The notes under the pieces are model-generated. The model did not search any database, was not told the DNA's origin, and saw nothing but the letters and a program-made list of their open reading frames with translations. Of a stretch of DNA of 64,000 bases, positions 35,453 to 40,312 are shown one piece after another. Numbering within the stretch: position 1 is the first letter of the stretch; each line of letters starts with the position of its first letter. The translations under genes and the position numbers were made by a program. The DNA comes from Peptostreptococcaceae bacterium VA2 (GTDB lineage Bacteria > Bacillota > Clostridia > Peptostreptococcales > Peptostreptococcaceae): contig JMMB01000007.1 of NCBI GenBank assembly GCA_000686145.1, positions 2,294,001 to 2,358,000 on the forward strand, given 5' to 3'.

Positions 35453-36910
35453 TTATTGATTTTGATTATCTCTTTTTATTTTTACAGGTTTCTTTTTTAT
35501 ATTTATGTCTTTATATTTTTTTAATAATGCTTCTCCCTTATGATTTAATATATCTACATAAGAACATAAATCTTGAACTTCTATAACTCCAATATCTTTG
35601 CTTTCTATTCCATCTAAATTGCTTATCGCTCCAACTATATCTAAATTTCTTATCTTTTTCCTTTTTCCACAGTTTAAGTATATTCTAGTAATTTCACTAT
35701 GTACTTTTTTAGGAACGCTTTTAACTCTTTTATCTTTTAAAAGCTTTTTTTGTCTTTCTTCAAATATAATTTTTCCTTCTTTAGCTTTTTCTTCTCTTAT
35801 ATCACTTAGTTCTTTTATTTCATATCCAATATAATCTTGTATTTCATTTATATATTTTTCATCTTTATTATTTATCATAGTTATAGCTTTTCCAAACTTA
35901 TCTTTTCTTCCTGTTCTACCTATTCTGTGTATATAGTTTTCTTTATCTCTTGGAACATCATAGTTTATTACTAAAGAAATATCATCTATATGAATACCTC
36001 TAGATGCTACATCACTACTGACTAATATATTAAATTTAAATTCTTTAAAATCTTTTATTGCATATATACGTTTTTCTTGCGACATATCACCATGAATTTC
36101 TTTTACTAAAAATTTATCTTTTTTCATTTGATTGTAAAGCTTGCTAACTCTTTCCCTTGTATTTAAAAATATCATAAGTGATTTTGGATTTTCAGAGTAT
36201 ATTAACTTTTTTAACATATCGTATTTATCCTTTGCTTCAACTTTTACATAACTTTCATCTATTTGTTTTTTATTTATTTCTTCGTGATTTTCTATTTCTA
36301 TCATACTTGGATTGTTCATATATTTTTGACTTACATATTGTATATCTTTATCTATTGTAGCTGAAAATAGTCCTATCGTTTTTTTACTTGGTGAGCTTTC
36401 AAATATTATATCTATTTGTTCTATAAACCCTTTGTTTAACATTTTATCTGCTTCATCTATTATCAAATAATTTATGTTTTGTATATTAATGGTTTGCCTT
36501 TGTATATGGTCTATTATTCTACCTGGTGTTGCTACTACTACATGTACTCTTTGCTTTAAACTTGATATTTGTTCTTTTATTGGTTGTCTTCCAAATATAG
36601 CACTACATCTTATTTTTTTTAATCTTCCTATGCTAGATATTTCCTCTTTAACTTGAAGAGCTAGCTCTCTAGTTGGGACTACTATAAGTGCTTGTATATT
36701 TGTATTCTCTATATCTATATTTTCACATATTGGAATTGCAAAACTTGCAGTTTTACCACTTCCTGTTTTTGACTTAACTATTATATCTTCTTTATTTATA
36801 AGCTTTGGTATTACTTTTTCTTGTACCTTTGAAGGATTTTTATATTCCAAGTTGTTTAATGCTTTTATTATATTTTTATTTAATTTAAAATCAGTAAATT
36901 TATTGTTCAT
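35453..36910 (-). CDS. DEAD-box RNA helicase with DbpA-type RNA-binding tail
   Basis: A 485-residue helicase. Q motif near the N-terminus (FTDFKLNKNIIKAL), motif I SKTGSGKT, Ia PTRELA, Ib TPGRI, II DEAD, III SAT, and the C-terminal VI HRIGRTGR. Residues about 405-475 (TRIYLNCGKRKKIRNLDIVGA, DIGVIEVQD) form the DbpA RNA-binding domain, which in DbpA/YxiN recognises 23S rRNA hairpin 92. It probably acts in large-subunit assembly. AAGGAG-like ribosome site AGGAGCAAAAG precedes the ATG. Confidence 0.9.
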   Translation of the reverse strand: MNNKFTDFKLNKNIIKALNNLEYKNPSKVQEKVIPKLINKEDIIVKSKTGSGKTASFAIPICENIDIENTNIQALIVVPTRELALQVKEEISSIGRLKKIRCSAIFGRQPIKEQISSLKQRVHVVVATPGRIIDHIQRQTINIQNINYLIIDEADKMLNKGFIEQIDIIFESSPSKKTIGLFSATIDKDIQYVSQKYMNNPSMIEIENHEEINKKQIDESYVKVEAKDKYDMLKKLIYSENPKSLMIFLNTRERVSKLYNQMKKDKFLVKEIHGDMSQEKRIYAIKDFKEFKFNILVSSDVASRGIHIDDISLVINYDVPRDKENYIHRIGRTGRKDKFGKAITMINNKDEKYINEIQDYIGYEIKELSDIREEKAKEGKIIFEERQKKLLKDKRVKSVPKKVHSEITRIYLNCGKRKKIRNLDIVGAISNLDGIESKDIGVIEVQDLCSYVDILNHKGEALLKKYKDINIKKKPVKIKRDNQNQ

Positions 36911-36999
36911 CTTTTGCTCCTTATTTTTTCATATGTAACTATCCATTATAGCATAAAAATATATTTAATATTATTTTAACAGGTTCACTATATTATTTA

Positions 37000-37638
37000 T
37001 CATATAATCACTACGTTTCTTTTCATATTATTTTTATTATCTATTTCAAATCCATATTTTATATATAACCGTTTTAAGTTTTTTTCACTTATTACATTTT
37101 TATTTGCTAGCATTTTACCTTCTATTTTTTTTATATCTTTTAAATTATAACTTCTAATTTTTTTATTTATCTCACTTATAATATAATCTAATTTTTTAAG
37201 CAAAATCCCTCCATAGCCTTTGTTAGATTTTATCGATGTAAAATCATCTATATATAATACTGAATTTTCTTTTCTTTCATAATATGTACAATCCATATAT
37301 GTATAATTTGTATCTCCAGTTATTATATTTATTTTTATTGGTATTCCAACACTTATCTCTTGTATATCTATAGTAACTACTATATAAAACATCTTATTCT
37401 CTTTGTTTTCTACATCAAATATAGTTATTATATTTTCTTTGTTATTTATATATTTTTTAATTTTTTTTGATAACTTAACATAATAATTGTACTCTTCTAT
37501 CAAAATTTCATCTTTAAATTTTATTTTTTTTATATTTTCGTATTTTATTTTTTTTAACTTATTATTTCTTATAGCTTTTATATTTTTATCCACAAGATTG
37601 TTTTTTATCTCATTTATTTTTATATCTAGACTAATCAT
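37000..37638 (-). CDS. GNAT-like N-acetyltransferase domain protein, hypothetical
   Basis: A 212-residue Lys/Ile-rich protein. The C-terminal half carries GNAT-like features: a beta strand SVLYIDDFTSI, the acetyl-CoA loop SNKGYGGILLKKLDYII, and the closing LKRLYIKYGFEID...MKRN. The first ~75 residues are charged and not recognised. The fold call is moderate, the substrate unknown. Its ribosome site GGGGG (37643-37647) is locked in a 25-bp hairpin upstream, so translation is probably controlled. Confidence 0.55.
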   Translation of the reverse strand: MISLDIKINEIKNNLVDKNIKAIRNNKLKKIKYENIKKIKFKDEILIEEYNYYVKLSKKIKKYINNKENIITIFDVENKENKMFYIVVTIDIQEISVGIPIKINIITGDTNYTYMDCTYYERKENSVLYIDDFTSIKSNKGYGGILLKKLDYIISEINKKIRSYNLKDIKKIEGKMLANKNVISEKNLKRLYIKYGFEIDNKNNMKRNVVII

Positions 37639-37641
37639 AAT

Positions 37642-37717
37642 ACCCCCATATAAGATTATAAAAAGTTTATTTTTGAAAATATCTACATGAATACTTTTTA
37701 TAATTTTATATGGGGGG
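37642..37717 (-). promoter_or_regulatory. Long hairpin sequestering the ribosome site of the GNAT-like gene
   Basis: Arms 37642-37666 and 37692-37717 are near-perfect inverted repeats of about 25 bp (one G-U pair, one extra C), with a 25-nt loop. In the minus-strand RNA, CCCCCC of the 5' arm pairs with the GGGGG ribosome site that lies 5 bases before the ATG at 37638. There is no U-tract, so it is not a standard terminator. Confidence 0.65.
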
Positions 37718-37746
37718 TTTTAATTTTTTATGATAATTATTTAATT

Positions 37747-38652
37747 TTATTTTATACTTTGAGCTTCATTATCTATCAGTTGTAAATTATACTGTTGTAT
37801 TAATTGTATTAACTTTTTAGAATATATTTTTTCTCCGTTGTCATCCATTAGTGTACTATATCCTGCTTCTTGCAATGCATTAGCTTGAACTTTATATGTG
37901 TTAGCCTCAAAAACACCATTTTCTTTATATCTCTTATTTTCATATAAAAACTTTGCATGGTCATAAATTGACTGATTTTTATCTTCATATTTTCTAAATT
38001 TATCATTTATTATTGTATTTGAGAACTCACTAGTTTCTAATGTTACATATTGACCTGTCCAAGACTTGTCTGCTTTTATTCCAAATAAATTATTGTATTT
38101 ACTTGCTAAATCTGAATTTCCCCATCCTGTTTCAAGTATTGCTTGAGCTATTGTTATTGATGGTAAAATTTCATATTTTTTATAATTTTTTATAGCACCT
38201 TCTTTTATGCTGTTTATAAACTTCATGTACTTAGTGTCTGATTTTAACTTACTAGGTCTAATACCATAGTATTTTAAATCTTCAACATAGTCGTGTACTC
38301 TTTTCTTTTCTCTCTTACTAAAATCTAATTCTTCAACTACATTGTCTAAAGAGTTTAGTTTATAAGTTTTATTTTCTTTTTTTATAAACATATTTGCCAC
38401 TTCTTTTATCTTTGACTCACTTACATTTTTAAATTCATTTTTCTCAATTACACCAATTACCGACGCTACATACTTCCAATTAACTTGAACCTTATTTCCA
38501 CTTATTTGGTCAGAATAGTTTATATAATCATCTACGTTTATTTCTACTTTATTTATCTCCTGTAATGACTTTAACTTTATTGCATAATATCCACCGATTA
38601 CCGAGACTGCTGCTACTATTATTAATATTATTATTATCTTTTTATTTTTCAT
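37747..38652 (-). CDS. Membrane-anchored GH73 endo-beta-N-acetylglucosaminidase
   Basis: A 301-residue protein with an N-terminal membrane anchor (residues 4-24). The catalytic domain covers about 130-295: SITIAQAILETGWGNS with the proposed catalytic Glu, LFGIKADKSWTGQ, FRKYEDKNQSIYDHAKFL and the aromatic end. It should hydrolyse peptidoglycan glycan strands from the outer face. Ribosome site AAAGGGAG precedes the ATG. It lies upstream of the GNAT-like gene on the same strand with only the long hairpin between. Confidence 0.9.
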   Translation of the reverse strand: MKNKKIIIILIIVAAVSVIGGYYAIKLKSLQEINKVEINVDDYINYSDQISGNKVQVNWKYVASVIGVIEKNEFKNVSESKIKEVANMFIKKENKTYKLNSLDNVVEELDFSKREKKRVHDYVEDLKYYGIRPSKLKSDTKYMKFINSIKEGAIKNYKKYEILPSITIAQAILETGWGNSDLASKYNNLFGIKADKSWTGQYVTLETSEFSNTIINDKFRKYEDKNQSIYDHAKFLYENKRYKENGVFEANTYKVQANALQEAGYSTLMDDNGEKIYSKKLIQLIQQYNLQLIDNEAQSIK

Positions 38653-38846
38653 ATTTAAATTCTCCCTTTGATGTTTTCACCTCTTCTATTATACAACAAT
38701 AATATGTCAAATATTATTACAAAATAGATTTTTATGTCTCATTTTATGTTTTTAACAATTATTTTTTTTTAATATACCTAAATTTTACTACTAGTTTGTT
38801 ACATAATTGTTACGTTATTTTTGCATTTCAATTATTTTCTAAAAAT

Positions 38847-38886
38847 AATAAAAGCATGCTCTTATATATTAGAGCATGCTTTTATT
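38847..38886. terminator. Bidirectional terminator
   Basis: AATAAAAGCATGCTCT and its exact complement form a 16-bp stem with an 8-nt loop, a few bases past the stop of the broken glycosidase. Between it and the GH73 start (38653-38846) I see only AT-rich sequence that should hold the GH73 promoter. Confidence 0.9.
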
Positions 38887-38889
38887 GCT

Positions 38890-40312
38890 TTATGGTTTAT
38901 ACACTATTTTATTATTTTCATCATATATTATAAGTGATTTTGCTTTTATTGTATCTTCTTTATATTTGAAATTATTATTTGAAAAATTAGCAACTACAGT
39001 CAAATTTTTCCCGAATGTACTACTTTGAACTAATCTGTCTTTTGATAAAACTTTAAAGCTTGTCATTGGCTCTTTTATTGCATTTTTATTAAAATCTGAC
39101 CATACCTTATTATGAGATATTATTTTATCTTTATACTTATTCCACTCGTTTTTATCAATATAGTACATAGGTGGTGTATTATATAAAATTTCACTCATCA
39201 TTCTATTTTCAACTTCATCCTTTATTTTAAAAGTTCCCCATAACCATTGATATGAAGTTATAACTGAATCATTATAAACTAATCTAAATAGTGGTATAGA
39301 GTAAGTTTCATCTATAAATATTTTTTTATATAATTCTTTTACTGGAACTACTTTAGAAAAAACTTCTGGAACTCCACTTTAATTTTCTGCCTGTGCCTTG
39401 GAATCCTTGTAGTTTTTCACCTTTTTCATTCTCTATTGTAGCATTTTCATATAAAGACTTATCTTCAAATTTAGCTGTACTCTACTTTTCTTCACCTGGT
39501 TTGTGTATAGAATGGTATGAGTCATATGGTCCTACTAAATATCCATACTTCTGAGCATTATCAACAAGCGTTGGTGACACATATCCAGCTTCTATATAAT
39601 CAAACCCTATCCATGCATTTTCTATATCTGATTTTTTCATATCATATAATACATCTACAGTATTAGTTTTAGCCCAATTTTGTGTTGGTGTCGTTGAGTC
39701 TTTTAATTGTGACTTTAATAACATTTTATTTAATTCTATCAGTTCTACTTTATTTAAATTATCAATCCCTTTTTTTATTAATTTATCAATATAATCTTGA
39801 GTCTTCATAGTATCAAATACTTATGCAGCTTGTTTTCCATCTTCTATTTTTGTATTTAATAATTCTTTTATCCAATTTCCTAAGTTGCTCGGTATATTAT
39901 TTTTCAATGACTTCCATTTAATATTATCCTCTGCAATTATTGATTTATCCCAAAAATATATATGAGGAGCACCATAAAGTTTTTCAATATTTTTATTATC
40001 CTTAGCTTTTTCTTTTTTTATACTAATATCTATGTTTTCTTTTGGATAACTCCATGAAACCTCTTTCTCATATTTTTTTAGATTTGATACTTCTCTTTCT
40101 TGTATTGGATTAGACACAGTTTCTTTTTTACCATTTACCATTACATTTACTTCAAAATTTTTAGGATTTACATCAAATGTAAAGTCTAAATTGTTAACTT
40201 GATTTTCTTGTAATTCTTTATTTACTACATTTTTGTTATTACACCCAGAAAGTGTACTTCCTATAAGTATTAAACTCATAATTACCGATATTTTTTTTCT
40301 CATTTTCTTCAT
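38890..40312 (-). pseudogene. Broken lipoprotein glycosidase (GH101/GH129-like)
   Basis: Three open fragments form one protein. It starts at 40312 with a lipoprotein signal (lipobox LSGC). A TAA at 39821-39823 interrupts GKQAA / VFDTMKTQDY in frame; a TAG at 39482-39484 interrupts HKPGEEK / STAKFEDKSL in frame; and near 39380 a frameshift joins GFQGTGRKLK to SGVPEVFSKVV. The rest (IPLFRLVYNDSVITSYQW) runs to 38890. Motifs such as FDYIEAGYVSP, GPYDSYHSIH and PLFRLVYNDSV recall alpha-N-acetylgalactosaminidase-type families from memory; the family call is tentative. Three separate lesions argue against a sequencing error. Confidence 0.8.

Follow-up and report, generated by a model that had tools for sequence, protein, structure and literature searches.

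A conserved leader hairpin probably blocks translation of a GNAT-fold gene in Peptostreptococcaceae

Introduction

Hairpins that hide the Shine-Dalgarno sequence (SD) of a gene are well known, from phages and from jumping genes. In long transcripts of the phage T4 genes e, soc, 49 and I-TevI, the SD and/or the AUG are described as base-paired within a leader stem (PMC3014915). For gene e, the DNA of the 5' strand of this stem includes a late promoter, TATAAATA, and short transcripts thus escape; similar leaders occur in related phages, and the autoregulated leader of T4 gene 43 has a hairpin some 40 bases ahead of the start codon (PMC3014915). A leader of the gene e type combines a structure that silences read-through mRNA with a promoter inside the structure that turns the gene on, and the locus described here may share both features.

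Leaders of transposase genes of the IS10/IS50 type occlude the ribosome site in read-through mRNA. RNA thermometers of the FourU and ROSE types also carry the SD in a leader stem. Literature searches yielded no account of the hairpin described here in Peptostreptococcaceae, nor of an acetyltransferase gene combined with an RNA thermometer; a search on read-through hairpins and insertion sequences retrieved nothing relevant beyond PMC3014915, and no mapped Romboutsia transcription start sites were found.

The locus lies in a stretch of 64,000 nucleotides of the genome of Peptostreptococcaceae bacterium VA2, called the window in the following. Compared with T4 gene e, the hairpin belongs to a chromosomal gene, the internal start is a candidate, and no phage late sigma factor is known. 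With the IS10/IS50-type leaders it shares the strong SD-closing hairpin directly in front of the ORF, protection against outside transcription being familiar for insertion sequences; however, the controlled gene has a GNAT fold and does not encode a transposase, and the sequence of the hairpin differs. The likeness to the T4 gene 43 leader consists of a hairpin at the ribosome-site region of the controlled gene and conserved loop bases, but here the SD itself is within the stem, and RNA binding would be a hypothetical activity of the GNAT protein. Unlike the thermometers, the hairpin is predicted to open little between 25 and 55 °C.

Results and Discussion

The hairpin sequesters the SD of a GNAT-fold gene

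The features of the locus are:

37747 to 38652, minus strand: gene for a hydrolase with a glucosaminidase domain (PF01832, E 1.4e-34), the co-directional upstream gene and a possible source of read-through
37693 to 37716, minus strand: 5' arm of the hairpin, 24 nt, from inverted-repeat search and folding
37667 to 37692, minus strand: loop of the hairpin, 26 nt here and 4-15 nt in homologues of other genera
37643 to 37666, minus strand: 3' arm of the hairpin, 24 nt, from inverted-repeat search and folding
37643 to 37647, minus strand: SD, GGGGG, which pairs with CCCCC of the 5' arm
37636 to 37638, minus strand: ATG start codon; the homologous ATG is a few nt past the SD in aligned homologues
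37000 to 37638, minus strand: gene for a 212-aa protein with a GNAT fold (ORF and predicted structure), the controlled gene

The two arms form 23 of 24 possible Watson-Crick pairs (96% complementary) and contain one A.C mismatch. Of the 45 inverted repeats found, 25 were listed, and among these the hairpin has the most complementary arms. A previous reading of the sequence alone had described a near-perfect stem of 25 bp between a cell-wall hydrolase gene and a GNAT-like gene; the hairpin and its position next to the PF01832 hydrolase gene were confirmed, while length and perfection of the stem had been slightly overstated. Folding also agreed with its claim that the SD is hidden in the 3' arm: the GGGGG forms the base of this arm, 4 nt ahead of the ATG at 37638, and 5/5 of its bases are paired with C. 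The minus-strand transcript of 37630-37730 has a folding energy of -27.3 kcal/mol, whereas shuffles averaged -11.9 (sd 2.36, z -6.53) and 0/200 of them were as low.

The sense strand was read by eye and has no U-run after the stem, as the sequence-only reading had held, and a sense terminator was rejected for this reason. On the plus strand the T-rich tract GTTTTAATTTTTT directly follows the stem, so that an antisense RNA could end there. However, the A-rich stretch before the 5' arm, from which such an antisense U-run would be transcribed, is present here and absent from L009, L010, L012 and L014 (by eye), and the z-score of -6.5 and the occurrence of the hairpin in 19/20 genomes also stand against this group of explanations, so that an intrinsic terminator in either direction, or a chance fold, is hardly credible. 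A terminator scan made no call at the hairpin, but it covers loops of only 3-8 nt, to which a 26-nt loop is invisible. An Rfam cmscan of 36000-39500 at E<=5 gave two weak matches, both outside the hairpin, and no known family at the hairpin itself.

So strong an SD pairing is rare in the same genome

The SD-helix score of the GNAT-fold gene is 20, the highest of 329 SD-bearing genes in the window and in 20 stretches of 20 kb from the same genome. The runners-up scored 19 (a transposase gene, L063:6803) and 17 (L054:7214, with a helix that is absent from the MFE fold). Ranked on energy alone, over a fixed interval of -75 to +15 that truncates the outer 5' arm of this hairpin, the gene is only 31st of the 329. 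Among 203 control genes of the same genome with comparable SDs, the median unpaired probability of the SD is 0.60, and it is <=0.15 in 15, nine of which also have an energy of <=-15. When the window and the loci of nine relatives were scored together, an SD helix score of >=13 was reached by 10/125 genes, and 8 of these 10 belong to the GNAT-fold family; the family member L028 scored only 9. When the genomic DNA was searched for a second copy of the hairpin, the only matches were this very site, its reverse complement, and two short stretches rich in A and T.

The runner-up is a candidate for a leader of the IS10/IS50 type. At L063:6117-6803 (minus strand) of the same genome, a gene for a helix-turn-helix transposase lies behind a very strong SD-closing hairpin of -40.4 kcal/mol and is followed by an integrase-core ORF, as would be expected of an insertion sequence that guards against read-through.

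The hairpin is conserved beyond its sequence

Homologues of the 212-aa protein were found in 13/61 relatives, in 17/71 genomes of the family, and in 20/393 genomes drawn from the order. Ten loci carry names, i.e., Romboutsia sedimentorum, R. lituseburensis, R. weinsteinii, R. timonensis, Paraclostridium benzoelyticum, P. ghonii, [Eubacterium] tenue, Clostridium sp. CCUG 7971, and two uncultured bins. In the family of the distant homologue L048, a search retrieved only this homologue itself (1/20 genomes).

The 5' ends were read one by one, and a hairpin that pairs the SD is present in 19/20 genomes with a profile match. These are seventeen genes with a start codon (L005-L012, L014, L016, L018-L022, L049, L052), the broken copy L023, and the distant L048; the exception, L050 (G090), is the weakest match (E 8.1e-4) and has no identifiable combination of SD and start codon. 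Accessibility was calculated for 16 leaders, which leave out L023 and L021 (identical to L014), with L048 treated apart. The mean unpaired probability of the SD is <=0.15 in 13/16 leaders and 0.17, 0.40, and 0.43 in L018, L010, and L008, respectively, the latter two being R. lituseburensis-type leaders in which three of the five SD bases are paired. For L048, the separately determined value is 0.05. Energies range from -15 to -28 kcal/mol across the leaders, and most other genera have stems of 13-19 pairs, which are shorter or interrupted in L011 and L018. In six aligned leaders of the Paraclostridium type, sharp conservation sets in about 15-20 nt ahead of the 5' arm.

The sequence-only reading had proposed to compare this leader in relatives for compensatory changes and had reckoned with the possibility that all of them lack the hairpin. 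The comparison revealed the hairpin in nearly all genomes with a homologue, with matched changes on both arms. The SD core varies between GGGGG and GGAGG, with C or U changing on the opposite side; in Paraclostridium the middle base is A, facing U, and in the R. timonensis types it is G, facing C. Where the 3' arm has gained 2 nt, the 5' arm carries two matching nucleotides, and near the loop an A-U pair is replaced by G-C. Many of the sequences stem from close relatives, and the number of independent groups is about eight. For seven sequences in a shared register, 96.2% of the cells are paired, compared to <=73.3% in slid controls, and the covariation score of 0.375 as well as the 8 cells with both sides changed were each reached by 0/500 shuffles. 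Pairs changed on both sides (3/15) were matched by 126/500 shuffles and further pair types by 381/500, and thus three of five covariation measures exceed the shuffles and two do not. RNAalifold on a 14-sequence MAFFT alignment (model R1) gave no consensus pair, because MAFFT had placed the arms out of register. Taken together, the sequence comparisons indicate that the structure of the hairpin is conserved beyond its sequence.

A second covariance model (R2) was built from 7 leaders and recovered 16/18 expected leaders, with L018 and L048 only at E 0.5-1.1; L007 and L012 were missed. Across 40 sources, L053:587-626 and L063:19858-19909 (26.1 and 25.3 bits) outscored the window's own hairpin (24.8 bits). 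Both are the best extra matches in the sampled stretches of the same genome and look, by eye, like terminator hairpins without SD and ATG, and R2 therefore discriminates poorly. In a whole-genome search, in which 150 of the hundreds to thousands of candidates per genome were scored, R2 matched only in G003 (1/21 genomes) and missed the window's own hairpin; this search is therefore uninformative about other copies.

Two broken homologues also carry the structure. L023 (G086:C46) has 18 in-frame stops and has lost its start codon, and a long CCCCC/GGGGG hairpin is kept; L013/L018 (G014:C1) consists of two pieces in different frames with stops and has likewise kept its hairpin.

The retained hairpin of the broken G086 copy (L023) would also fit an origin without translational control, in which mutation bias (template switching) or a role as a DNA operator preserves the palindrome and the SD is hidden only incidentally. 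Quasi-palindrome correction by template switching readily affects long palindromes, and such a bias may help to keep the repeats. However, 33/302 counted leader pairs are G-U pairs, which are disfavored by palindrome correction and in a DNA operator and therefore argue that pairing of the RNA matters, with the restriction that some of them could result from C-to-T drift opposite a constrained SD. In addition, loops and arm lengths vary, and it is the SD end that is the paired end. Mutation bias or an operator function is thus a quite improbable explanation.

The hairpin stays with the gene and not with the place

The upstream gene differs between the genomes. It encodes the hydrolase in the genus of the window and in R. 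lituseburensis, a RelA/SpoT-domain protein in R. timonensis, an ABC-2 transporter in P. benzoelyticum, a maltose-acetyltransferase-type protein in [E.] tenue, and a GyrI-like protein in CCUG 7971, while in genome G029 (L008) a CRISPR array with nine repeats is found upstream of the homologue. Judged from these sequences, the upstream neighbors are unrelated between genera, and the hairpin stays with the gene and not with the place. Translational coupling to the upstream gene is unlikely, because here some 30 nt separate the hydrolase stop codon from the 5' arm, and in the other genomes the gene upstream is different or far off.

Because the hairpin persisted through changes in sequence and gene neighborhood, it probably represents a genuine on/off control of translation. 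The closed SD in 13/16 leaders, compared with 15/203 control genes, together with the presence of the hairpin in 19/20 genomes, makes it very likely that the leader hairpin of the GNAT-fold gene is a selected block on translation. As far as comparative sequence data can tell, this block is very probably gene-specific.

The CRISPR array of G029 (G029:C1:85007-85558, repeat GTTTTATATTAACTATGTGGTATGTAAAT) ends a few bases upstream of the conserved leader of the homologue. The repeat is presumably close to the CRISPR repeat of C. difficile; it occurs in 70 copies in G003 and in 43 copies with 1-2 mismatches in G010.

Heating is predicted to leave the SD largely closed

The position of the SD in an A-U-rich stem would be compatible with release of the ribosome site by heat, as in an RNA thermometer, and in 3/16 leaders (L012, L018, L022) the predicted SD exposure increases by more than 0.1 between 25 and 55 °C. 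However, exposure at 55 °C is predicted to be <=0.24 in 14/16 leaders, it is nearly flat at 0.41-0.43 in L008 and L010, and for the gene in the window it rises from 0.000 to 0.002 only. The widely different stabilities of the leaders (-15 to -28 kcal/mol) also speak against a thermometer. A thermometer is therefore very improbable, and heat, one of the opening routes that the sequence-only reading had listed, received no support in silico.

The controlled protein and the possibility of autoregulation

Pfam at E 0.1 gave no match for the 212-aa protein, and NCBIfam none near the cut-off; the Acetyltransf_7 profile touches 2/13 family members (best E 0.016). An AlphaFold2 model based on a 13-sequence alignment (pLDDT 86.5, pTM 0.83) has a C-terminal domain of the GNAT type, ahead of which model and sequence place a basic helical N-terminal part. 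VIA-align reported Z-scores of up to 10.2 over residues ~82-210, mostly for acetyltransferases, and also a fragment of ornithine decarboxylase antizyme at Z 10.0. Foldseek with the predicted model had no match at E<=0.001; its top rows, at E 0.004-0.01, are chains of isocitrate lyase 2 and N-acetyltransferases such as Naa50 and NatD, most of the latter at probability 0.9-1.0. G141-Y-G143 is invariant among the homologues and conforms to G-x-G, the acetyl-CoA motif of GNAT proteins. The protein is thus predicted to have the fold of the GNAT superfamily and to be a putative acetyltransferase, and the designation GNAT-like in the sequence-only reading holds at the level of predicted structure (AlphaFold2, Foldseek, VIA-align) only. 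Among three congeners dN/dS is about 0.15-0.29 (dN 0.04-0.08, dS 0.27). For the R. lituseburensis-type pair L008/L010 the ratio is about 0.5 (dN 0.046, dS 0.093), and selection on the protein looks weak in this pair.

The main rival of an internal transcription start is translational autoregulation by the basic protein: the GNAT-fold protein itself, or another RNA-binding factor, would bind the hairpin and its conserved loop and thereby stabilize or open the SD stem. The first 70 residues are basic in 13/13 proteins (net +5 to +10), and among 373 proteins the one from the window is 8th by net charge per residue and 26th by pI. Further points in favor are the conserved loop sequence and the apparent gene-specificity of the lock, as judged from the DNA search of the genome, which gave no second copy, and from the two best extra R2 matches, which lack SD and ATG. 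However, lysine-rich N-termini are common in AT-rich genomes, and in most leaders the bare stem is closed without any factor. Autoregulation is regarded as rather unlikely. Leader-peptide attenuation of the erm/cat type would call for a conserved short ORF that has its own SD and overlaps the 5' arm; in an inspection of leaders by eye, no upstream ORF common to them was seen.

A candidate transcription start within the hairpin

Structure around the SD is known to depress translation, and so stable a stem should almost abolish it. Transcripts with both arms, i.e., read-through from upstream, would thus be translationally silent, and the protein would come only from shorter transcripts without the outer 5' arm. 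Their start would lie inside the hairpin, downstream of a TATAAA-like 6-mer that is part of the 5' arm. The candidate elements in the window are:

37705 to 37710, minus strand: TATAAA in the 5' arm, candidate -10 element
37697, minus strand: A, candidate transcription start, eight nt after the 6-mer

A by-eye alignment places TATAAA, TATAAG, TATAGA or CATAAA at the matching site of the 5' arm in 13/13 representatives; the 6-mer was the anchor of this alignment, and its own presence is therefore not independent evidence. The distance from the 6-mer to the ATG is 35-41 nt in 12/13 representatives and 72 nt here. An A at +13, i.e., eight nt past the 6-mer, is present in 13/13 representatives, and AAA at that offset in 6/8 group representatives, which 0/500 shuffles reached. 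A sigma-70 scan found 20 promoters, compared to 19.2 expected, and none at the 6-mer; the scan demands a T at position 6. As a -35 candidate, AGT within a range of four offsets is found in 5/8 groups, which 22/1000 shuffles also reached, the motif having been chosen post hoc; in unbiased k-mer tests, 472/500 (k=3) and 382/500 (k=4) shuffles do as well. The sequence evidence for a conserved -35 element is weak, as is that for a promoter overall.

When the RNA was cut in silico at the conserved A, the SD became more open in 16/16 leaders (0.22-0.96), an opening that is expected of any hairpin upon loss of its 5' arm. The cut RNA remains below the control median of 0.60 in 10/16 leaders, and values of 0.37-0.43 in the genus of the window correspond to a half-closed SD.

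A different way of opening the stem would be RNase III-type processing or a trans-acting small RNA. The 23-bp stem of the window's genus suffices for double-strand cleavage by RNase III, but stem length varies among the genera, and processing or a small RNA is considered improbable.

The sequence-only reading had also listed a protein, RNase processing and a transcription start inside the 5' arm as ways of opening the stem; of these, a start within the hairpin best fits the anatomy of the locus, which resembles that of T4 gene e. A read-through lock with an internal start is therefore favored, if tentatively: relief of the block by an internal transcription start is put at somewhat under even confidence. 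In its widest form, this reading would make the leader an undescribed cis-regulatory RNA, a self-contained promoter-in-hairpin module that moves with the gene of the GNAT-fold family. It would span the Peptostreptococcaceae and a distant relative in another family, and the gene could lie behind any transcription unit, even a CRISPR array. We regard this extension as possible but rather doubtful. If true, the module would keep the gene untranslated from read-through RNA, and so tight a lock would point to an acetyltransferase that does harm or has to be confined to a specific program. This suggests that insulation by a promoter within a hairpin, as in phages and insertion sequences, may also serve an ordinary chromosomal gene. 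A gene that is so tightly locked is a good candidate for encoding a product whose misexpression is costly or toxic, and a family of uncharacterized acetyltransferase-like proteins gains a control element that can be tested.

Further features of the neighborhood

Beyond the hydrolase gene, at 38890-40312 (minus strand) of the window, a gene for a GH129-type glycosidase is apparently broken into three ORFs of 163, 108, and 103 aa. The 108- and 103-aa ORFs match PF11308, and the congeners L024 and L025 carry a single related ORF of 769 aa in this position. Between the broken glycosidase gene and the hydrolase gene, a two-way terminator-like hairpin is found at 38846-38887.
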